Shown: in pieces, positions 4,603-17,283 of the stretch
Position numbering within the stretch: the first letter of the stretch is position 1
Layout: the number at the start of each line of letters is the position of its first letter
Source: Verrucomicrobiia bacterium
GTDB lineage: Bacteria; Verrucomicrobiota; Verrucomicrobiia; Verrucomicrobiales; Akkermansiaceae
Direction of reading: 5' to 3'
Assembly: GCA_030432565.1 (NCBI GenBank)
Contig: JAUIGV010000018.1
Coordinates: 1-64,000 of the forward strand
Length of the DNA: 64,000 nt
Translations under genes and position numbers: made by a program
Notes under the pieces: model-generated
Database searches by the model: none
The model's input: the letters and a program-made list of their open reading frames with translations, nothing else
Told to the model about the DNA's origin: nothing

Positions 4603-7600
4603 TTAGTGATTGAAAAGAAAGGCTGAAGTGTTGATGAGAGCCCAGGCGAGGTCCTGGGCGCCGGTGAGGCGGCGTTGTGCGAGTTGTTTCGTACTAAGAG
4701 CGAGATCGCTTCGTAGTTGGTCGTGGCGGGGGTCGATGCTCGGCTTCTTTTCCAGGTTGGTCAGACGTTCCCGGAGTTGTTTAAGTCCGGGGTCGATAGG
4801 AAGTGGTTTGCGGGCTTGGGCGAGCTTTTGATCGAAGCCCTTAAGCTTGGCATCGTTATCCCGGTAATATTTGGTGATCAAGTCCGCTTGTTGCTTGCTT
4901 CGTTTATCTTTTGGGACGGCAAGGGCTTCCTTGATATTTGCCGGAAGGGCAAAGGGAAGAGGCCCTGTTTGGGAGGTGACGGAAAGCCGGAATTTCCCAA
5001 GGGTATGAACCTCATCAAAGGGCTGCTTCAAAGTGAACCGGAGGATGCTGCCCTTCTGGTTGGAAGCAGATTTCCCTATTAGGAAAATGGCTGTTTGGTT
5101 TTTACCAACCTCCGGGGCGATCGCCCAGCCGGCATTGGGGCCGCCCGGGTTCCCATCGACCGCTTTCGCGACCTCGTAGTTCTTCTGACTAAAGGTCGCC
5201 TGGGCCGTGGCAAACTTGACAGGCTTGAAATTGTCCGGGTCTGCAGCCGGTGCGATTTCCAGCTCGAACTCACCGAGGACAAAGTTTCCGCCCTGACGGC
5301 CCGGTCCTTTCCCTGGAAGGCGGTCATCGGTGAGCATCTCCAGTCTCACTGCGGTGAGGTCACTCAAATCCGTTTCCGCGTTCACGGTGTAGGTGGTTTT
5401 GCCATTGTTGCCGCTCGCAAAGATTGCCTGATCGGACTCGACCGAAAGGGTAGCTCCATTTGTCGATTGAAGATCCCTTGGTTCGAGGGTAACCCAGGGA
5501 GTCATGCCACCGAGGCCCTTTTCCCACTTGGCGATGGTTTGAGGAAGAGTGGCCTCGTATGATTGTTTCTCCTGTTCGAGTTTGGCGATCCGATTCTTTC
5601 TCTCCTGTTCGGCTGCATCGACCTTGGGCTTGATGTCCTTTTCGTGGGCAATGATCGCAGTGCGCATTGCTTCGATATCCGAAGCGAGCTTCTTCTCGGC
5701 GGCAGCGAGAGCGGGGTCACGATTTTCGAGATGATTGGCAAGGATACCTGAGAGCTTGGAATGATCAGCAGTGATCTCAGAATTGAAGAATCTGAGCGTC
5801 GTGTCCATTTCAATGGCAGTCGGAGGTCGGTTGAGGATTCGATAAAAGATTCCCTCGATCAGGCTGTGATCGTCTTTGGTCTCGTTGACGAGTTTGGCGA
5901 TGGCATTGTTGGGGTCGGCAATGGCATCTCCCACGGTGGGGCCACTGAGAAGGGCCATAACGGGACCAAGTTGCATGTCGCTGTTGCGTTCGCATTCGCA
6001 GGAGCTTTCGCGAACGGGGCGCCCGAAGTTGGAGAGGAAGCCGTCGGGGAGTTTGACACCGACATCGGGAAGGGAAGCGGCCCGGGTACCTTTTGGCACG
6101 CCGGGGAAACGGCTGCTGGCTCCAGTGACGGCGTGAATGGTGTCGTAAAGAACTTCGGCAGGCAGGCGGCGGGCCTTGGCGTGGGAGAAGTTGATGGTGT
6201 CGTCCTCGTTCCACTGATTGGTCTTGATGGAGAGTTGGTAGGTGCGTGACTTGACGATGACGCGCATCAGTTCACGGACGTCGAAGTCATGTTCGATAAA
6301 GTATCCCGTCAACCACTCGAGCAGTTCGGGGTTGGAGGGGGGATTGCCGGCGCGGATGTCGTCGAGGGGTTCGATGATCCCGGTGCCCATCATGTATCCC
6401 CAGACGCGGTTGGCGTAGCTGGAGGCAAAGTAGCGATTGTCCGGCGAGGTCATCCACTCGGCCAGTTGGTCGCGGCGGCTGGCTTCTTTTGGTTCTTCGT
6501 GGGCGGCTTCGTATGGGAAGGAAGGAGGGGTGACTTCGCCGGTGCGCTCGTGCTTTTGCTCGGCCTCGTTCTTTTGAAAGACGACTTCGTAGAGTGGCTT
6601 GGCTCCCTCCACGGCGGTGCCGCCAATCTTGCTTTTACCGCTGGCGGGATCGGCTTTTAGGCCCACTTGGGCGAAGAAGGCAGACATTTCGTAGTAGTTG
6701 TCCTGGGTCCATCGCTCGAAGGGATGATCGTGGCATTTGTTGCAGTTGAAACGGGTCGCGAGAAAGAGGTGGGTGGTGTTTTCCATGGTGTCCTCCGGAG
6801 TACGAAGGATCTTAAAGTAAGAGGCAGGCGGGTTGACTTTGTTGGAACCGGTGGCGGTGATGATCTTTCGGGCGAACTCATCGTAAGGCGTGTTTTGGGC
6901 CACTTCGTTTCGAATCCAATCGCGAAAAAGCTTGGCTCCCTGGGGGGCGAGGAACTTGCGGTTCACTTGCAGCAAGTCCGACCATTTGTTGGTCCAGAAC
7001 TCAACGAACTCGGGGTTTCCAATGAGAGAATCGATGAGCTCATTCCGCTTCACCTGCGAGTGGCGGGTGTCGGCGAGGAAAGATTTCACTTTCTCGACGG
7101 TGGGAGGCAGGCCGGTGAGGTCGAGGTGAATACGACGCACAAAGTCGATATCGGTGGAGATCTCCGATGGCAGGATTTTCATGCGCTTCCACTTCTCTGC
7201 GACGAGGGAATCGATGGGATTGAAGGTCGGCGGGGTCACCCACTCGAAGCCGCTGCGATCACCCATCGCGGTCACGGTGGTGGCGGCATAGGCTCCCTCG
7301 TAGCGTACGAGAATGGGAGCTTCTCCCCGGCGGATCACCTTGACGAGAGCGGGGTAGCCTTTGACTGTTTCGGCGACTTCGCTGTTACCGCTGCTGATGA
7401 CGGCTTCCGAAGTCACGTCGCGGGTTTCGCCCCCGGGATAGGTCGCAATGACGCGCATCTGTTGCATCGCGCCGATGTTTTGGACGACGGGGTTGAGCGG
7501 GAAGACTTCGATCTTTTCAACCTTGGTTTTCTTGTCTTCGAGCTTGGCTCCCTGGGCGATCCAGGCGCGGATGATTTCATAGTAGTCATCCCCGGGTTTG

Positions 7601-9690
7601 GTGAGTTGCCCTCCTTCGTGCGGCACGGCGGAGGTGGCCTTGAGCAGCATGAGGCTGTCATCGGGCGAGGCCAGGTTGACGCGGCGCGAGGAAATGTCAT
7701 CGGTGAAGGCGCGGACGTCGTAAAGTGGATCATAGCCGCGGAGCGAGAGCTTGAAGCCGTTCTTTCCGTCCTTGGCCCCATGGCAGGTTCCGGCGTTGCA
7801 ACCCATGCGGGCAACGACGGGATTGACGTCCTTGGTCCACGCGGGAAGGTATTTTTGGTTCAGGCCGGTGACCTCGACGGGAACGGATGTCTTGCGACCG
7901 GCGAGGCTGAAATCGATCGCGCTGGTGCCATTCGATGCGCCACGAACGATGCCGGTTTCGGAAATGGTGGCTTTGTCGTTCCGGGGAGCTTTTTTTGCAA
8001 TCCGGGTCACGTCAATCACGTCGCCTGAATCGAGTTGCGCTGAGACGATGACCTGGGCGTAACGGTAGGGATTGTCGATCCTGATCGCGTCAGCCGGAAC
8101 GACACTGAGTTTGACGACCGAACGGCCTTCCGGAATTTTTTCGGAATCGAGGGGCTTCCGTTTATCGAGGGTCCGCGTATTGCCGAAAGTCTTTTCGACG
8201 ATTTTAGCTTCCGGGGTGATGGTGACGGGGAGGAAACTTTTGGAAATCGTGCCTGCTGAAACATCGACAATACGAATCATGCCATCGGGGCCAGAGGCGG
8301 CGAGTTGGGATCCGTCGGGATTAAAGGAGACGGCGAAGATGCCGCATTCTGGCACTGGGATGGTGGCGAGTGTTTTGATGCTGGTCTCGAAATGCTTCTT
8401 GAGCTTTGCCTTCATCTCGGCATTCCGCTGGTGGGTTGGCTGCTTGATAATGGCCGCGATGTCATTCGGAATCTGAGCCTCGGGATCGACTTCATAAATG
8501 TGGATCGCCCCTTTGCCATTCAGGCTGCTTCCGGCGGCGATGCGTTTGGCGTCTTTGGAAATATCGACGGCGAAGACCCGGCCTTTGAGAGGCGGAAATT
8601 CGAGGAGGAGATTGGCGTCATCTCCAATCTTGCGGGCCGTGTTGCGGAAGATGCGGTAGAGCTTGGGAACGCCATCCGAACCGCCGACCACGATTTCGTC
8701 GCGCGTGGGATGCATCACCACTGCGGCCATGCCTCCTTTCAGGGCATTCGGGGTGATGGAGGTGATATTGTCGATGAGCCGTTGGGTCGCCAGTTCGGTG
8801 AGCTTGGCGGTCATGTCACGGCTCACTGAAACGACGTGATCGCCTTTTGGGTTGAAGGCGGTGTCGAAGACCCAGTCGTTGTGGCCTCCTTGAAAGAGAA
8901 CTTGTTTTCCGGTTTTGGCATCGATTGCGCGCACGCTGTTGTCGGAGCAGCCGAAGGAGATTTTGGTGCCATCGGGCGACCAGGCAGCCCCATAAACAGT
9001 GTCAAAGGTGACGGGAGCGGAAAGAGTGAGCTTCTTTTTGGCAACGTCCCAGACTTGCACCTCGCCCATGCGTCCGGGCAGACCTCCGGTGACGGCGAGC
9101 TTTTTTCCATCGGGGGAAAAACGAACCGACTCAATGCGCTCGGAGAGTCCGACCAAGCGAGCCACTTCCCCGGAGCCGTCTGCTTTTTGAAGGAGGACCT
9201 CGTGGAAGCCAGAGATGGCGAGGAGGGAGCCGTCGGGTGAGTAGTCGAGCGAGGTGATGACCGGTGGCTTGGTGTAAACCGGCGGGTGGTCCTGATCGTA
9301 TCGCTGGCGGGCATTCTCGGGGGTGTCGTCCTTGGCCCCTTCTTCAATCCAGCGTCGGATGAGGGCGATCTCGATTTCGTGAAGCGGATCGTCCTTTTTC
9401 GGCATTTCGGCATCGCCGTCCTTGTCCGGGGTGATTTCCTCGACGAGGTAGCTTTCATCCGGCTTGCCCGGGACGATGGCGACGCCCTCTTCACCTCCGG
9501 CAAGGAGGCGTTTGAAATCGGTCATGACGTAGTTGCCATTGTCCTTGGAGGGTTGGTGACAACCGACACAGTTTGCCTGAAAAATGGGACGAATGTCCTG
9601 ATAGAAGCTGACGGGTTTCGTTGATTCTTCAGCAGCATTGCCAGGAAGGCCAAGGAGAGAGATGATCGAGAGAGTTGGGAAGAGACGCAT
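4603..9690 (-). CDS. Giant exported planctomycete-type cytochrome: PSCyt1-WD40-Ig-like-DUF1549-DUF1553
   Basis: 1695 residues from the ATG at 9690, which opens a clean signal peptide ([21 protein letters not shown]). The frame is open further upstream to 10065, but that part crosses the divergent SLBB gene and has no signal peptide. Order: PSCyt1 cytochrome with CVGCH, ~500 residues of WD40-like blades (repeated SPDG..), a bacterial Ig-like domain, a C-N-A-G-T-C-H-G motif, DUF1549 (..[13 protein letters not shown]) with CNKCH, DUF1553 ([13 protein letters not shown], ..CECERN), then a long coiled coil and a discoidin-like beta domain ahead of a terminal [13 protein letters not shown] motif that normally closes DUF1553. 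First gene of an operon with DUF1501 and ASPIC/UnbV. Heme attachment at CxxCH is expected from the motifs; the electron partner and substrate are unknown. Confidence 0.93.
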
Positions 9691-9698
9691 GATCGGGA

Positions 9699-9720
9699 GA
9701 TTCGGGTAGACTACCGAATC
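9699..9720. promoter_or_regulatory. Palindrome in front of the cytochrome/DUF1553 start codon
   Basis: GATTCGG-G-TAG / CTA-CCGAATC forms a 10-bp inverted repeat with one bulged base and a one-base centre. It ends 8 bases upstream of the ATG at 9690, where a ribosome would bind, and lies in the 124-base gap between this gene and the divergent SLBB gene. It could be an operator or a translation-blocking hairpin. No regulator gene for it is evident nearby. Confidence 0.35.
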
Positions 9721-9814
9721 GAGGAATTGGCGGCAAGGAGATAGGAACGAAGCTGTTACCCGAGTCTGGGTAATTAACATTGACTCTAAAATTGAAGTCG
9801 TTAATCGTGCTCTA

Positions 9815-10189
9815 ATGAGGTCAATTACAGTATTATCGGGCTTGTTTCTTATCGTGACTGGAGCAGGTGGGCGGGAAACTGTTTTTGCTGCGCGGTGCCT
9901 TGTGCTCCCGGTCCCTGAAGTCGGGAAGTTTACCGCGAAGGACAAGGAAGTTGTGAAAGTGCTTGGGCAGGTGAATAAGCCGGCAGCTATTCCCTGGGAA
10001 AAGGGCCTAACCTTATCCAAGGTGATTGCCAAGGCAGGTGGTCTAACCAAGCTGGCAAACACCAAAAAGGTTTCGGTGACCCGAAATGGGAAGACGGTGC
10101 GCCATGATCTTGGATCCCTAAAAAAGAAGGGGGTTGATCCTCCGATCCTCCCGGGCGATATCGTCGCAGTCGCTGAGAGATACTTTTGA
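9815..10189 (+). CDS. Small exported protein with a single SLBB domain
   Basis: 124 residues. Residues 1-25 form a probable signal peptide. Residues ~45-122 match an SLBB (soluble ligand-binding beta-grasp) domain: VKVLGQVNKPAAI, then LSKVIAKAGGLTKLA, then a basic strand and LPGDIVAVAERYF. In Wza/KpsD-type polysaccharide export proteins SLBB follows a Poly_export domain; here that domain is absent and the protein stands alone. A role as a soluble glycan-binding or export accessory protein is inference. It is transcribed away from the cytochrome operon and no capsule export genes are in the window. Confidence 0.8.
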   Translation: MRSITVLSGLFLIVTGAGGRETVFAARCLVLPVPEVGKFTAKDKEVVKVLGQVNKPAAIPWEKGLTLSKVIAKAGGLTKLANTKKVSVTRNGKTVRHDLGSLKKKGVDPPILPGDIVAVAERYF

Positions 10190-10553: not shown

Positions 10554-12899
10554 ATGAAGAAATCGATCAAATTAATAGGCACTCTCCTCACCTCTCTGTC
10601 GCTGGCTACCATGCCAATTTGGGCGCAAGAGACGGAGATGAAAGCGGCTCCGAATGTGAAGAATTTCAAGGAGCTCCAAAAGCTCGATCGCCAGATCGTC
10701 GCACTTTCCGGGCAGGCACAACCTGCGACCGTTTGCCTCGTTGCCAAAAACGGAAGGGGCTCCGGAAGTGGAGTCATCGTGAGTGAAGAGGGTCTCATTT
10801 TGACCGCAGCTCATGTCACTTCCAGCATGCCGGGTGGCGTGATCGTCATCTTTCCTGACGGTAGCAGGAAGGCGGGGGAAATTCTTGGAGCTGACTATGA
10901 TCGCGACGCCGCGATGGTTCGAATCACTGATGAAGGCAAGTATCCCTTCGTTCCGATCGGGGAGAGCAAGGGCTTGAAACGAAACCAGTGGACGGTGGCG
11001 CTCGGGCACTCGGGTGGATTTGATCCGATGCGCAAGCCTCCCGTTCGTTTGGGGCGCGTGCTGGCAAACGATGGTTTTGTGGTCACGGACACTGCCGTGG
11101 TTGGCGGTGATTCGGGAGGACCACTTTTTGACGTGCAAGGGCGTGTCATTGGCATTCATTCCAATATTGGCATGACCCTGAGTGAGAATCGCCACGTGCC
11201 TATCGATGTGTTTCGCAATCAATGGGAGAAATTGAAGAGTGGAAAAATGAGCGGAAAACGCTTTAACAACGCACCTCAGCCGGTTCAATCGCCGGATCGT
11301 CCGATGCTCGGGGTTCAGTTGGGTGACGGTGAGGGGGGTGTCACGGTGACGGAGGTTGTTCCGAATTCTCCGGCCGAAAAAGCCGGCCTGAAAGGCGGTG
11401 ATCTCATTGTCGAGGTGAATGGGAAAAAAGTCTCGGAGCCAGCCGATCTGATTCAGCTGGTTGGGATGCGCAAGGCCGGGGAAGAAGTGAGCTTCGTTTA
11501 CAAACGAGGTGGCGAGGAGAAATCCGCCAAGGCCAAATTAATCAAATTGAAGGACTTGATGGAGCCCCAGGGGGCGCCGGAGAAGCCAAAGAAGGAGAAG
11601 CCGCAATCTAAAAAAGAAGAGCCAAAGACGAAGGACCCCAAAGAGACAAAGCCTGCCAAACCGACTCCCAAGGAAGATAAGCCTGAGACCAAACAAGAGC
11701 CTGAGAAGAAAGAAGATAAACTGCCTTCGCTGGAAAAGTTGCTCAAGGATGCGGCCAAGAATGGCGGTCGTCTGGAGCTCACTCCCGACTTAATCGAGAA
11801 GATGGGTGGAATGGAGAAGCTGATGGAAGAACTTCAGAAGCGCGGTGGCCAAATCGCACCGGGATCGATGGGAGGCGGTGTTGATGAATTTTTCGCGTCA
11901 TCCCTCAAGGCCCTGGAGCCGGTGATGAAAAGAAACCCCGGCGTCACCGCGCTGGTCACGGTTGATGGAAAGCCTGCGGTTCTTGGCACGGTGGTTTCGG
12001 CCAATGGAAAAATTCTTACCAAGAATGCTGAAACCGATGAAGGTCAGTTGGCGGTCAAACTCGGAGGAAAAGACTACGAAGCGAAAGTTTTGAAACGCTT
12101 TCCCCAGCGGGACCTGGCTTTGTTGAAGATTGAGGCCACGAACCTCCGTCCGGTTCGTTTTCAGGTCGAAGAGCCCGCCCTTGGTTCTATCCTCACCGCA
12201 AGTGGAGCAGCGAACGAGCCTCTCGGAATTGGTCTTCTCAGCGTTCCCGGTCGCGCCATGGCTAAGGTGGGGTTCATCGGAATTCAAGCCGGTGAAGGCG
12301 ATGGGGGAGTGCTGATTGCCCGTCTTGTCCCGGATGGGGCGGCGAGCGAGGCAGGCTTGAAGGAGGGTGATATCATCACCAGCCTCAATGGTGAAAAGGT
12401 GGAAGATCCTATTTCGTTTGGAGGCTTGATCCGTGGACGCAAGGCTGGCGAGGAGGTCAAAGTTGGTTATCTCCGTGAGGGTAAGCCGGCCGAATCAAAG
12501 GTGACTTTGAAAGAGCGCAAGATGCGTGACAATGTCCAGAATGACCCCCGCATGAAGCGCTCGCTTGGACGTCTCTCGGAAAAAACCGGAGGGTATCCCG
12601 ACGTGATCCAGCACGACATTCCACTTCCTCCGGAGCTCTGCGGAGGTCCGCTCTTTAACCTCAAAGGAAAGTGCATCGGAGTGAATGTTTCCCGGGCCGG
12701 ACGCACCAAGACTTACGCCATTCCGGCTGACGAGATCGTCGAGTTACTCAAAATAAAAGCGGCTCCAAAACCACAACCCAAGGTTGTCGCGAAGCCAGCT
12801 CCTTCAAAGAAGGAAACGCTGGAAGCGATCAAGGCGATTCGAGAGAGCATGAAGCAAATCGAAAGCCGCCTCGAGCAGTTGGAAGAGTCGGTTCGCTAA
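10554..12899 (+). CDS. HtrA/DegP-like exported protein: active protease-PDZ plus degenerate protease with inserted PDZ
   Basis: 781 residues with signal peptide (cut after ..MPIWAQ, ~24). Module 1 is a trypsin-like domain with a complete triad by motif: H87 (LTAAHV), D118 (DRDAAM), S187 (GGDSGGP), then PDZ1 (~250-332). A Lys/Pro/Glu-rich linker (~340-390) leads to module 2. There the histidine motif reads ILTKNAE (His replaced by Ala492), the Asp is kept (RDLALL, D520), and the serine motif reads ELCGGP (Cys696 in place of Ser). PDZ2 (~575-652) sits inside module 2, between the HtrA 'SGIVS' and 'IQTD' positions. The C-terminus (~755-781) is a short coiled coil. Likely role: periplasmic quality control, with module 2 as a binding or regulatory pseudoprotease (inference). 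Followed by a good terminator. Confidence 0.92.
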   Translation: MKKSIKLIGTLLTSLSLATMPIWAQETEMKAAPNVKNFKELQKLDRQIVALSGQAQPATVCLVAKNGRGSGSGVIVSEEGLILTAAHVTSSMPGGVIVIFPDGSRKAGEILGADYDRDAAMVRITDEGKYPFVPIGESKGLKRNQWTVALGHSGGFDPMRKPPVRLGRVLANDGFVVTDTAVVGGDSGGPLFDVQGRVIGIHSNIGMTLSENRHVPIDVFRNQWEKLKSGKMSGKRFNNAPQPVQSPDRPMLGVQLGDGEGGVTVTEVVPNSPAEKAGLKGGDLIVEVNGKKVSEPADLIQLVGMRKAGEEVSFVYKRGGEEKSAKAKLIKLKDLMEPQGAPEKPKKEKPQSKKEEPKTKDPKETKPAKPTPKEDKPETKQEPEKKEDKLPSLEKLLKDAAKNGGRLELTPDLIEKMGGMEKLMEELQKRGGQIAPGSMGGGVDEFFASSLKALEPVMKRNPGVTALVTVDGKPAVLGTVVSANGKILTKNAETDEGQLAVKLGGKDYEAKVLKRFPQRDLALLKIEATNLRPVRFQVEEPALGSILTASGAANEPLGIGLLSVPGRAMAKVGFIGIQAGEGDGGVLIARLVPDGAASEAGLKEGDIITSLNGEKVEDPISFGGLIRGRKAGEEVKVGYLREGKPAESKVTLKERKMRDNVQNDPRMKRSLGRLSEKTGGYPDVIQHDIPLPPELCGGPLFNLKGKCIGVNVSRAGRTKTYAIPADEIVELLKIKAAPKPQPKVVAKPAPSKKETLEAIKAIRESMKQIESRLEQLEESVR

Positions 12900-12971: not shown

Positions 12972-15900
12972 CTATTCCTTCTCGGGCATGGGTGCTCTTT
13001 CGGCACCTTCCAGAGTTTGGAGGTAGTGGCGAATGGCTTCGAACTGTTTGTCGGCATCGCCCTGATAGAAGGTTGGGTTTAGGGCCTTCTTTTTGTCGAC
13101 GGTGTACTTGGGCATGATGGTCAGCGGGGCGTGGCGTTGTGGCCAGAACATCCAGGTGCGGTAGTAATCCGGGCGGAGGCGGTCGCTGGCGATTTGCAGG
13201 TTGGGGCCTTGTCCTTCGAAGGCTTGCAGGGCGGGAGCTTCACCGGCAGCGTGACAGGCGATGCAGGCGTAGCCACCGGATCCGGTAAGTGCCATGCCGG
13301 TCTTCACAAGGTCTGGTTCCACTCTAAAGTCGGAGGATGAGAGGTCCATGCCGGCTCGGAAGGCGAGGCCTTTGCTCAAGGCCTCGGCATGGGCGGGGAA
13401 GCCTGGCATGCGGGCATGGAGCCATGGCCGGACTTTGAGCCCTTCTCCTTTGAGGAGAGTATTGAGCCAAGCGCTGTGGAATTTTTCTCCGGCGAGCGAG
13501 ATTTCGGGCAGCTTGTTTTCGCCGGAGTGGCAGCTGGCGCATTGGAATCGTTCGACGGCTCGTGTGGCATATTCGTGAGGAACGAAGCGGCGAAGCGAAG
13601 TGTAGTTTCTATTGCCATCGATGTTCTTGAAGGCGAAGAGGGCTTGCTTTTGGTCGATGCCAAGGCCGAGTTCGGGAGCGTTGCCTTCTTCTTCGGAGAG
13701 GCAGCCGTGCTCAAACCATTCGGTGTTCCACATGTCTTTCAGACTTTTGGCGGCGAACTCGTATTTCACGCCTTTGCCGGGTTCGTGACAAGTGGCGCAG
13801 CGTTGGGAGAAGACTTGTTTTCCTTTTACGGAATCTCCGCCGGAGAGAACGGGAGTCTTGGTGGCCCGTGAAACGATGGCGCTGGCGATGTTGGCGGCTT
13901 CCCGTGTTGTGAGACGAAGGTCGGGGAAGGTGGTGTGCCGATGGTGTTGAGCTGGATTGAGCAGCAAGATGCGCAGTCCGGTTGCGGTGAACTTGCCGGA
14001 CTTGGCAAGTTCATCGGCCCAAGGTCCGAGGTGAAGTTCTTCGATGAGTCGGGCTCCGCTTTCGGCGTCTCCTTCATCCCCGGCGGATGTTTTCATTTTT
14101 CTGGTGGCAAGGTATGCGGCGATGTCGGCGGCGTGGTCGGGCGCGACGGTCGGGCAGTGATCATCGGGTTTGCGGATCCACTGCTCCACCCACCCGGCAT
14201 GGTAACGGTGCCCGGCATTTTTGAGGTCCGGCAGCGTTTCAAAAAGCTCGGGCATTCTTTCGGACTTAAAGTGATTCTTGTCTGCGGTGTGGCATTTGAT
14301 GCAGTTGGCGGCGGCGAAGAGATTGCGTCCGGCGCGGGCCTTGTCTTTTTTGCCGAGCATGGAGTTGGCGGTGTAGCGATAGGCGGAGGGTTTGACCGGT
14401 TCCCAAACGAATGCAGAACCGCTCCAAAGAAGGCGAATACGGCTCGTTCCTTTTTCGGCTCCCTTGAAGTGGCAGAAGAGGGCTTGCGGGCCGGATTCGA
14501 GAGCGAGGGGAGGGCACTCGAGAGGAAGGTCTCCTTCCATCACTTGCTTGCCATTAATCTTGAGGCTGGCCCAGCCCTTGCCTTCGAGCCGGAAGGCGCG
14601 TTGGTCGCGGGCCTCGACGATGAGGTTACCTTCGAAGACGGCCTGGTTGGTTCCGATGAAAACGGAGACTGCCTTGCGCTCCTCGATAGTCAGAGCGAGG
14701 CGGTCCACGACGGTGGCGTCATCGGCGCTTCCCTTCGAGGTGGTGAGGAGGAGGCCGGGTTCGCCGCGTGCTTCCTTTTTGATGACGGGAAGATTGGCAA
14801 GATCGAGGCCGTGATCGCCGAAGGCCGGGCGTAGATTGTGGATGGTGTTCCAAATTGTTTCCTTGAACTCCTTCTTGTCGGCATCGGCGAGATCCATGCG
14901 GATTTCCATCTGCATGGCAGGAGTCATTTTAGGAATGTAGAGGAAGACGGATTTGCCGTCTTCGAGAAGTTGGGCGGCGCGAACATCAACGGAGTCGACC
15001 TGATTGACGGACCCTTTCGAAGGCTCGACGAGAGCTTGGGCGCGGGCGGCGGGATCTTGTTCATCGATGGAGAAGCGGCCGGAACCATACTGCGGTCCCC
15101 AGACGTAATCCCACTTGCTGATGTTGTAACGGCGCGGGTCTTTCGCGACTTCGGGATCGAGGCTGGAGCTGAACTCGACACGGATTCCGTTTTCAAAGGC
15201 CTCCAGTTTGAGCGGGACGGGCTTCTCCTCCGAGACAAAGCGGATGCGCTGGAAGCCGGTTCCTCCATTGGTCTGCCAACCGCGGAATCCGATGATGTAA
15301 AGGTGGCCTGATCCCGGGTGGAAGCGGCCCCGCATGTTGGCAGTGGTGAGTTCGATGGGGAGGCGGTAAACGCCCCCCTGAACCTGGCCGTCGACCTCGT
15401 CAATCAAGGTGCGATAGATCGAGCTCTTGCCATAGGAAAGGTGGAGCATGTTTCCGGCGTGGTTTTTCCAGGAGCTGTTGTCGGGAACCCAAAACTGGCT
15501 CCCGCTGGAATTGTCGACGTAGTAGGGGAGCCAGCAAAGCGGGCGTTCGTAGTCGGTGGGCATGCCGGGGAGATTGCGGACGAATTTTTTGTTATCCCAC
15601 TCGCTCGGGACAACACCGTGGAAGCTGCTGCCGTCTGGCTTGCTCCAGGTGATTTTACAACGGGGAACGTAGCTGCCCTCGTTCTCACCGGTGGTCATTT
15701 CGCCATTGGGTCCTATGCCCACGCCACCGGGAGCGCGAAGTCCCCAAGCCATGCGGGTGAGGGTTTTTCCATCGGCGCTGACTTTCAGGATGGTGCCATT
15801 GTGCTCGGTGAGATCGGAAAATCCGCGCCCGCCGGAAAGGACGGGAGCGCCTTTGCTGAAGTAGAAATTACCCTCTTTGTCGGTTTGGAGGTCGAAGGCG

Positions 15901-17129
15901 AACTCGTGGAATCCGGGCGTGATGAGGACGTCGTTGTTAAAACACTCATAGAAGTCAGCTTCGCCATCGTCGTTGAGATCGTGAAGACGGGTGATTTGAT
16001 CGCGTCCGTGAGTGTAAATGACGTCATCGACAATTTTCAGGCCGAGAGTTTGGTAGAGTCCGCTGGCGAATCGTCGCCAGGTGATCTCGGAGAGGTCGCC
16101 GTCGATGCCCTCCGCAATCCAGACGTCGCCGTTCCAGGTCGAGCAAGCCGCGCGCTTGCCGTCGGAGAAAAAGTCGAAGGCACCAAAGCGGATGTTGGAC
16201 TCCCATGGGTTGTCCTTGGGGAGAGGGATATCGTCGACAACGTAACCCTTCTCATCCTTGCTGGTGCGGCCTTTGACTTTGATGACCTCCGGGAAAAGGG
16301 AGGAGCCTCCTTTGGTCAGAGTTTCGAGATCGATGAATTCGATTTTTGGAGTGCTGGCTCCTTCCGGTGCCAGTCTGACATCGAAGTTTCCTTTACTGCC
16401 CTTCTCAAGAAGAACTGTCATCCTCCCCGAGTCGTAGTTCTTGAGTGAGACTCCATCTGGTGCCCCAATGAGGGTGGGCGTTATCTTGGGAGATCCTTCG
16501 AGAGGGTCCAGAACGAGGATTTCGATCTCCTGCTTTACGGGGTCAATTTGGAAGGCGCGATTGATTCCCCCGCGGAGCAGAGAGGGCGTTTCGAGAATTT
16601 TTGAGCCACCGACCGAATAACTCAGAATGACGCCATTTCCATACCGGTAGAGGCCATGATACTCACCTTGGGCATCGGGGAGCGGGCCGTTTTTGGTTTC
16701 GCGGGGATCTTTCCAGTTGCCATTGACGGCAATGCCGGGGCCTTTGTTGGTGGCGAAAAAGTAGTCCTTCCGGTCTTCGGGCAAATAGGAATTGTCACTG
16801 TGCTTGCCACTCCAGGGGGTGCCTTCATGCATGACCCTTCCTTTGAAGCCTGCGACCATGCGGAGGGTTTCGGTGTCGAAGACAACGGTGTGATCTTCCT
16901 TGTCGCCGATCTTGATGGCGATGCCCTTGAGCACGGCCACGTCGCCTTTGGGCCCGAAGCCGAGGAAAGTGTCACTGATAAAGGGACCGGTGTCCATGGC
17001 GTCCCACCAGCTGAGTTTCGGATTTTCAGCGATTCTTTGTTGGGTGAGTTCGGCTCTTGTTGCGGCAAGAGTCAGAGAGGTCGTATGGGCCAGAAGTCCG
17101 CCGAGGATGAGTGCGCGTAAGCAAGTCAT
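12972..17129 (-). CDS. Large exported DUF6797-type protein with beta-propeller and four c-type heme motifs
   Basis: 1385 residues from the ATG at 17129, which begins a signal peptide (MTCLRALILGGLLAHTTSLTLAA); the frame is open to an ATG at 17180 that would add 17 residues. The N-terminal ~200 residues (SWWDAMDTGPFISDTF.., GLYRYGNGVILSYSVGG) match the DUF6797 region of PVC heme proteins. A propeller-like middle (GADFYECFNND-type segment, GLRAPGGVGIGPNG, YVPRCKI) resembles glucose/sorbosone dehydrogenase-type folds. The C-terminal third holds four CxxCH motifs: CIKCH, CATCH, CASCH and CIACH. It probably oxidises an extracellular substrate and passes electrons through its own hemes (inference). 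Monocistronic as far as can be seen, convergent with the protease gene. Confidence 0.9.
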   Translation of the reverse strand: MTCLRALILGGLLAHTTSLTLAATRAELTQQRIAENPKLSWWDAMDTGPFISDTFLGFGPKGDVAVLKGIAIKIGDKEDHTVVFDTETLRMVAGFKGRVMHEGTPWSGKHSDNSYLPEDRKDYFFATNKGPGIAVNGNWKDPRETKNGPLPDAQGEYHGLYRYGNGVILSYSVGGSKILETPSLLRGGINRAFQIDPVKQEIEILVLDPLEGSPKITPTLIGAPDGVSLKNYDSGRMTVLLEKGSKGNFDVRLAPEGASTPKIEFIDLETLTKGGSSLFPEVIKVKGRTSKDEKGYVVDDIPLPKDNPWESNIRFGAFDFFSDGKRAACSTWNGDVWIAEGIDGDLSEITWRRFASGLYQTLGLKIVDDVIYTHGRDQITRLHDLNDDGEADFYECFNNDVLITPGFHEFAFDLQTDKEGNFYFSKGAPVLSGGRGFSDLTEHNGTILKVSADGKTLTRMAWGLRAPGGVGIGPNGEMTTGENEGSYVPRCKITWSKPDGSSFHGVVPSEWDNKKFVRNLPGMPTDYERPLCWLPYYVDNSSGSQFWVPDNSSWKNHAGNMLHLSYGKSSIYRTLIDEVDGQVQGGVYRLPIELTTANMRGRFHPGSGHLYIIGFRGWQTNGGTGFQRIRFVSEEKPVPLKLEAFENGIRVEFSSSLDPEVAKDPRRYNISKWDYVWGPQYGSGRFSIDEQDPAARAQALVEPSKGSVNQVDSVDVRAAQLLEDGKSVFLYIPKMTPAMQMEIRMDLADADKKEFKETIWNTIHNLRPAFGDHGLDLANLPVIKKEARGEPGLLLTTSKGSADDATVVDRLALTIEERKAVSVFIGTNQAVFEGNLIVEARDQRAFRLEGKGWASLKINGKQVMEGDLPLECPPLALESGPQALFCHFKGAEKGTSRIRLLWSGSAFVWEPVKPSAYRYTANSMLGKKDKARAGRNLFAAANCIKCHTADKNHFKSERMPELFETLPDLKNAGHRYHAGWVEQWIRKPDDHCPTVAPDHAADIAAYLATRKMKTSAGDEGDAESGARLIEELHLGPWADELAKSGKFTATGLRILLLNPAQHHRHTTFPDLRLTTREAANIASAIVSRATKTPVLSGGDSVKGKQVFSQRCATCHEPGKGVKYEFAAKSLKDMWNTEWFEHGCLSEEEGNAPELGLGIDQKQALFAFKNIDGNRNYTSLRRFVPHEYATRAVERFQCASCHSGENKLPEISLAGEKFHSAWLNTLLKGEGLKVRPWLHARMPGFPAHAEALSKGLAFRAGMDLSSSDFRVEPDLVKTGMALTGSGGYACIACHAAGEAPALQAFEGQGPNLQIASDRLRPDYYRTWMFWPQRHAPLTIMPKYTVDKKKALNPTFYQGDADKQFEAIRHYLQTLEGAERAPMPEKE

Positions 17130-17283
17130 GGTGATTTGAGTTCCCAAGACTAGGAAGATCAGAAAGGGCTTCAATCCCAAAGGGGTGGCTCTTACGATCG
17201 GAATGGTTGCTTTTGAGTGAAGTGGGATCTTTTAACTCGAAAGGATGAACAAAAGAGGCGAGATTCGGTCTTACTCTTGTGAA

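Follow-up and report, generated by a model that had tools for sequence, protein, structure and literature searches.

Why would an HtrA protease carry a second protease module that is unable to cut, and what would a PDZ domain be doing inside the fold of that module? The question is raised by a gene of a Verrucomicrobiia bacterium (Akkermansiaceae; assembly GCA_030432565.1, contig JAUIGV010000018.1, positions 1 to 64,000 of the forward strand), this stretch of 64,000 nucleotides being referred to here as the window. The open reading frame at 10554-12899 (+) starts with ATG, encodes 781 amino acids and was judged to be real (product P0001). A Pfam analysis of the protein identified Trypsin_2 and two PDZ domains, all well above cut-off. 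In the following, m1 denotes an active HtrA-PDZ module and m2 a second, catalytically dead module with an inserted PDZ. At roughly even odds, the window protein may represent a two-component HtrA system of Verrucomicrobiota in fused form, in which m2 would serve as a dedicated pseudoprotease subunit, sensing peptides via its PDZ and controlling m1 in trans.

The amino terminal half of the protein can be considered in terms of the following features.

10554-10625 (+): signal peptide-like N terminus, residues 1-24, from sequence reading
10749-11219 (+): module 1, an active-type HtrA protease fold, residues 66-222, matched by Trypsin_2
10812-10814, 10905-10907 and 11112-11114 (+): H87, D118 and S187, the module 1 triad, residue positions confirmed
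11301-11540 (+): PDZ1, residues 250-329, C-terminal to the module 1 protease, matched by PDZ_2 over 80/80 profile positions
11544-11882 (+): charged Lys/Glu/Pro-rich linker and a helix-rich stretch, residues 331-443, from sequence reading

Module 1 has the chymotrypsin fold with His-Asp-Ser that defines HtrA/Deg proteins, and PDZ1 is placed after the protease; some m1 of related loci end without a PDZ. The NCBIfam Do-family model TIGR02037 scored 247.4 bits against a cut-off of 416.2, so the window protein is a divergent HtrA and not a DegP/Do equivalog. A signal-like start was found ahead of 74/77 m1 and 77/79 m2 domains by a crude rule applied to named relatives. Judging from its sequence, module 1 is probably a serine protease of the HtrA type that is located in the periplasm and carries a PDZ of its own.

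Fold of the second module

The features of the carboxy terminal half are listed below. Conservation is given over an alignment of 116 m2 rows, which includes one protein split in two and some fragments.

11919-12254 (+): first part of the module 2 pseudoprotease fold, residues 456-567, from AlphaFold2, the VIA match and a profile match to the N part of HtrA
12021-12032 (+): pseudo-active site K490, N491, A492, E493 (K-x-S-E in the family) replacing Ala-Ala-His-Val; K in 112, S at 492 in 111 and E in 98 of 116 rows
12111-12113 (+): D520, the kept triad Asp; D in 114/116 rows
12252-12254 (+): R567, the final residue ahead of the insertion and the start of putative loop L3; R in 113/116 rows
12267-12518 (+): PDZ2, residues 572-655, within putative loop L3 of module 2, second stretch matched by Pfam PDZ
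Residues 574-577 (+): carboxylate-loop-like F-I-G-I of PDZ2; G576 in 115/116 rows
12519-12593 (+): return linker from PDZ2 to the barrel, residues 656-680, from AlphaFold2 and among the least certain parts of the model
12594-12761 (+): second part of the module 2 fold, residues 681-736, from a profile match to the Ser-loop part of HtrA chains; Cys696 (12639-12641) is at the nucleophile position
12762-12896 (+): C-terminal tail, residues 737-781, helical or coiled-coil-like by eye

The PDZ of module 2 lies between R567 and residue 679, and not behind the protease as is usual in HtrA proteins. A profile was built from 56 m2 sequences and compared with solved HtrA/DegQ-type chains. Against 6z05, columns 24-123 of the profile match chain residues 64-164 and columns 237-295 match 171-234, while the PDZ columns 139-215 match 258-334. 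From the changed order of these segments, a PDZ that trails the protease in HtrA here fills a gap of about six residues inside the fold. In our reading of this alignment, the site of PDZ2 probably corresponds to the place of loop L3 of DegP, a sensory loop which includes Ser188, Gly189 and Glu193 (as described in the available text of PMC4434178).

AlphaFold2 analysis of residues 444-745 produced a model (pLDDT = 89.5, pTM = 0.80) in which PDZ2 was not placed after the fold. A Foldseek search with this model identified DegQ and its relatives as the best matches. When compared by VIA-align to the PDZ-free catalytic domain of HtrA1 (3tjn_B), 178 residues were aligned across model residues 1-291 (Z = 24.6, RMSD 2.9). 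Since the match to a catalytic domain spans the insertion, PDZ2 is an insert in a single barrel fold. A second AlphaFold2 model, made for the m2 of a Luteolibacter pohnpeiensis relative (pLDDT = 92.8, pTM = 0.83), superimposed on AlgW (7co5_B) over 187 residues with an RMSD of 2.3 and a Z of 24.4. Neither model drew on loci from the genome searches. Module 2 is predicted from these models to be an HtrA catalytic-domain fold interrupted by PDZ2.

The initial annotation had proposed that PDZ2 interrupts the second protease fold instead of following it, and this is borne out by the segment order in the 6z05 profile, the 444-745 model, the 3tjn_B match and an insert in all 116 m2 rows. The insert is 80-133 amino acids in length (median 115), with none below 60. 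The same arrangement in 116 m2 rows at a mean pairwise identity of about 31% excludes chance. A full-length alignment of the m1 and m2 rows with the whole protein misplaced the m2 rows onto module 1.

One alternative to a regulatory subunit is a substrate adaptor or chaperone, whereby the PDZ and the dead pocket of m2 would pass unfolded envelope proteins to m1 with no allostery. The signal-like starts on m1 and m2, an inserted PDZ with an intact carboxylate-loop glycine and the chaperone activity of HtrA proteins (reported in the available text of PMC4877387) are all consistent with this role; however, it leaves unexplained why the PDZ is positioned exactly in L3 in all 116 m2 rows, and an adaptor is considered unlikely.

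Catalytic residues of the two modules

The residues on which the initial annotation had based its case for one active and one inactive module (H87, D118, S187, ILTKNAE at 487-493, D520 and C696) are all present where it had placed them. Across 111 m1 domains, the triad columns are invariant with H, D and S each in 111/111. In the 116 m2 rows, the His column contains S 111, A 2, E 2 and one gap; the Asp column, D 114 and N 2; and the Ser column, C 34, M 23, V 19, A 14, I 12, T 7, S 2, Q 2, L 1 and two gaps. A complete triad is absent from all 116 m2 rows and His is found in none, in agreement with the earlier designation of the second module as a pseudoprotease. Conservation of Cys696 had been put forward as a check alongside that of the PDZ insertion; the insertion is kept in 116/116 rows, but the cysteine is not a family rule. 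With Cys at the nucleophile column in only 34/116 rows, Cys696 is unlikely to be a retained nucleophile, and a cysteine protease acting through Cys696 is an unlikely candidate with His in no row.

The positions of K490, S492, E493 and D520 rank among the best-conserved columns of m2, the window protein being an exception in that it has Ala at 492 where the family has Ser. A Lys-x-Ser-Glu at the former His site and an Asp have been retained by a family that is unable to use the usual triad. The dead site of m2 appears from these columns to be under constraint. Such columns (K in 112, S in 111 and D in 114 of the 116 rows) might also be expected if m2 had retained a non-standard catalytic site, such as one made of Lys-x-Ser with Asp or, in the window protein, of Cys696. 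This is very improbable given that the window m2 is without that Ser, that most rows have C, M, V, A or I at the nucleophile position, and that no row has the His.

A decaying duplicate was also considered. The m2 fold, K490, D520, R567 and G576 are kept across the family at about 31% mean pairwise identity. A comparison of the window gene to its G307 orthologue gave a dN/dS of 0.32 for m2, 0.17 overall and 0.65 for PDZ1 alone, values that are rough owing to low dS. Decay was rejected on the basis of the conserved fold and residues together with these values.

Conservation of other segments was also compared. The LD region of m1 has a conservation of 0.722 versus 0.547 overall, the highest of the five m1 segments measured. 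Special conservation was sought in the return linker of m2 and was absent (0.434 versus an m2 average of 0.450), which speaks against a fixed contact surface, and the linker was not supported as a specially conserved one. A shortened L3 in m1 was left unused since it was a slight tendency only, with lengths of mostly 10-11 residues versus 10-19 in 22 DegP-type controls by a rule that failed on 16/111 m1 rows.

Linkage, shared descent and fusion of m1 and m2

The source genome contains four sets of these modules: the window gene, two pairs of adjacent genes (L049 and L050), and the locus L051, where two products are encoded in tandem. A search with m2 over 384 genomes of the class gave hits at E <= 1e-10 in 84; a few of these hits cover only the PDZ. 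From the genome searches, 113 Verrucomicrobiota loci were taken; some listed places were left out, many of them from near-identical genomes. In these 113 loci, 112 of 115 m2 reading frames are linked to an m1, either as adjacent genes on the same strand (99, with a median gap of -4 bp) or as fusions (13). The remaining three are the solitary m2 of L131 and the first reading frames of L051 and L119. The initial annotation had described an active protease joined to a pseudoprotease, which is true of the window protein; however, fusion is the minority arrangement among the linked pairs.

A contig search of named genomes with a pattern that fits one subgroup only found 131 relatives. The 80 listed all carry Verrucomicrobiota titles, including Luteolibacter, Haloferula, Roseibacillus and Rubritalea. 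A 100% match of L177 (L. pohnpeiensis) to G185 assigns Luteolibacter to family code f1, to which the window also belongs. An m1 is directly ahead of m2 in 78 of these 80 listed loci of the 131, and the remaining two end at a contig edge. Forty-one genomes were then compared that had been picked by m2 status, 21 with m2 and 20 without. Matches of the m1 type at >=187 bits were present in 21/21 genomes with m2 versus 0/20 without; the weaker m1 matches, which occur with and without m2, are for the most part ordinary DegP-type proteins. At 40/41 places, the m1-type gene is linked to m2. The exception is G171, with m1 on contig C38 and m2 on C46. In G210, two places with weaker m1-type scores (171 and 160 bits) encode fusions to an m2 half that has no PDZ. 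In a plasmid search, 27 records matched, none of them with 80% query coverage at a single place.

In a tree of protease cores (56 m2, 40 m1 and 22 DegP-type controls), each group falls on one side of a branch with support of 99, 99 and 98. The tree shows m2 as one clade of single origin. Distances among m1 and among m2 are correlated (r = 0.81 over all 112 linked pairs, 0.886 over the 99 that are unfused), and when partners were swapped within genomes, the mean r fell to 0.239 (sd 0.042) with 0/1000 trials reaching 0.886. Since neighbouring genes may be inherited or duplicated together without contact, this mirror-tree result is weakened, and joint duplication of neighbours accounts for part of the signal. 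Within the sampling, which is of one phylum, m2 is shown to have obligate co-occurrence and co-inheritance with m1.

The fused state occurs in 16/115 rows. Mapped on the m2 tree, it must have changed seven times or more, and well supported branches force five of these changes. A 623-residue protein at L272:1569-3440 (-) is fused in the reverse order m2-m1. That fusions have arisen repeatedly and in both orders points to m1 and m2 being physical partners, and is better evidence for contact than the mirror-tree or linkage results, which cannot separate contact from joint inheritance.

A contact of this kind could also be expected if m2 were mainly an assembly part, the dead fold holding the oligomer and the inserted PDZ merely adding contact. 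An inactive protease domain is reported to be involved in trimerization in Deg7 (available text of PMC3473262), and both the retention of the m2 fold at a Z of 24 and the fusions in both orders are in keeping with this explanation. It leaves the glycine of the PDZ carboxylate loop (115/116) and the conserved K, S, E and D of the pseudo-site unexplained, and the chance of it being correct is judged to be low.

Some loci depart from the common arrangement. Both PDZ domains are gone from the m1-m2 fusions at L268:1623-4421 (+), which has a long extra C-terminal part that is esterase-like by eye, and L269:2332-3945 (-). As these paralogues are fused and have no inserted PDZ, PDZ sensing cannot be the sole function. 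At L051:3169-4842 (+) and L119:886-2559 (+), a 557-residue protein has a first half that resembles a degenerate protease without a PDZ (by eye) and a second half that is m2. It is encoded directly 5' of a fused m1-m2 gene, so that one live module and what look like three dead ones share the locus.

Fourteen small genomes (2.2-2.7 Mb) of the genus coded g2 (G002, G060, G077, G091, G105, G115, G129, G134, G215, G219, G317, G327, G356 and G368) have no m2 and show nothing of the m1 or any other HtrA type at E <= 1e-30, and m1-m2 pairs are present in g2 genomes from about 2.7 Mb upwards. The absence of m1 and m2 from the small genomes looks like joint loss.

Proposed role, known systems and genomic context

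In HtrA trimers, binding of a ligand rearranges the sensor loop L3, which then contacts loop LD of an adjacent subunit, ordering the active site there (according to the available text of PMC6172425). In the two-component reading, m2 would pack beside m1 in a mixed oligomer and take the place of a subunit. A peptide bound by the built-in PDZ of m2 would move the L3 of m2, and the moved loop would switch the LD loop and active site of m1. The anatomy and partnership of m1 and m2 are well supported; from them we infer physical contact, peptide binding and an activating direction of control. Several observations run counter to this scheme: most m1 carry their own PDZ and may not need a second sensor, G171 keeps m1 and m2 apart, the fusions at L268 and L269 have lost the inserted PDZ, and the return linker of m2, through which the signal would be expected to pass, is conserved no better than m2 on average. 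The broader proposal, that Verrucomicrobiota possess a class of hetero-oligomeric HtrA proteases that divide sensing and cutting between subunits, with a dead subunit, its PDZ wired directly into the sensor loop, acting in trans as the obligate allosteric switch for the active one, is put forward tentatively, as a possibility slightly short of even.

The nearest studied pair is MamE/MamO, in which cleavage depends on the MamE active site and the presence of MamO but not on the MamO triad, and the TauE-like domain of MamO is needed for MamE activation (available text of PMC4794232). As in that pair of separate proteins that work together, an active and an inactive HtrA fold are encoded in one locus, here for the 112 of 115 linked m2 reading frames and for the 78 of 80 named loci listed from the 131. 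MamO differs in carrying the TauE-like domain, in having no PDZ inside its protease fold in the description given in the available text of PMC4794232, and in being limited to magnetosome islands. Conceivably, m2 could instead act as a brake, holding m1 inactive as long as no peptide is bound to m2. The anatomy would be identical to that of an activating subunit and the data fit control of either sign, and the PDZ of C-terminal processing proteases can either stimulate (Prc) or inhibit (CtpA/B) (available text of PMC6686036). Nothing specific to the sign speaks for inhibition, and in MamE/MamO the inactive partner promotes cleavage; a brake is accordingly rated as improbable.

Plant Deg7 (Arabidopsis) has active and degenerated protease domains in one chain in the order PD-PDZ-PDZ-PDia-PDZ-PDZ (available text of PMC3473262). 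Live and degenerate HtrA domains thus share one polypeptide as in the window protein and the 13 fusions among 112 linked pairs; however, the PDZ domains of Deg7 trail its dead domain in that description, and the window protein has one PDZ after module 1 and one inside module 2. Module 1 and both halves of module 2 match DegP, DegQ and DegS in sequence and fold. In those proteins the PDZ trails the protease and the triad is complete, whereas module 2 has neither property. Nma111/Ynm3 of yeast, which is eukaryotic, also has tandem HtrA modules of which the second is degenerate, and is not known to have an inserted PDZ. C-terminal processing proteases of the Prc type belong to MEROPS family S41. 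Like module 2, Prc has a regulatory PDZ inserted in a serine protease domain (available text of PMC6686036). Its catalytic fold is unrelated to that of module 2 and it is an active enzyme.

From the MamE/MamO and Deg7 precedents, the pairing of active and inactive HtrA proteins is itself of a known kind; what is new is a dead subunit with a PDZ in L3, spread over many families of one phylum. The available text of a 2019 survey of microbial PDZ domains, which tabulates Chlamydiae/Verrucomicrobia, makes no mention of a PDZ-in-HtrA-fold arrangement (PMC6411480). A search of the open literature, mostly without subscription papers, found nothing on a Verrucomicrobiota HtrA pseudoprotease or on a PDZ inside an HtrA fold. 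The "distinct regulatory design" suggested at the outset for an active protease joined to a pseudoprotease seems plausible.

Peptide switching of HtrA via L3 has been studied mainly in homotrimers, where the sensor and the cutter are one chain. If the two-component reading is true, a separate dead sensor with a PDZ in L3 would allow sensing and cutting to be mutated, titrated or removed singly, and there would be a route by which HtrA duplicates become regulators besides those of magnetotactic bacteria and plants. This concerns whole families of Verrucomicrobiota in which envelope quality control has been little studied.

No conserved operon was found beyond the m1-m2 pair, the commonest neighbour family being present in 32 of the 80 loci of close relatives listed from the 131. 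When the fused loci were compared, the flanking genes of the window gene were common to G307 only and absent at G210 and G180. A short reading frame with an SLBB domain, 5' of the HtrA gene at 9815-10189 (+), was likewise common to G307 only among the three fused loci compared. The HtrA gene is flanked by two large minus-strand genes with cytochrome domains, 4603-10065 (-) and 12972-17180 (-), one of which contains PSCyt1, PSCyt2, PSD1 and WD40 domains and the other DUF6797 with cytochrome c.
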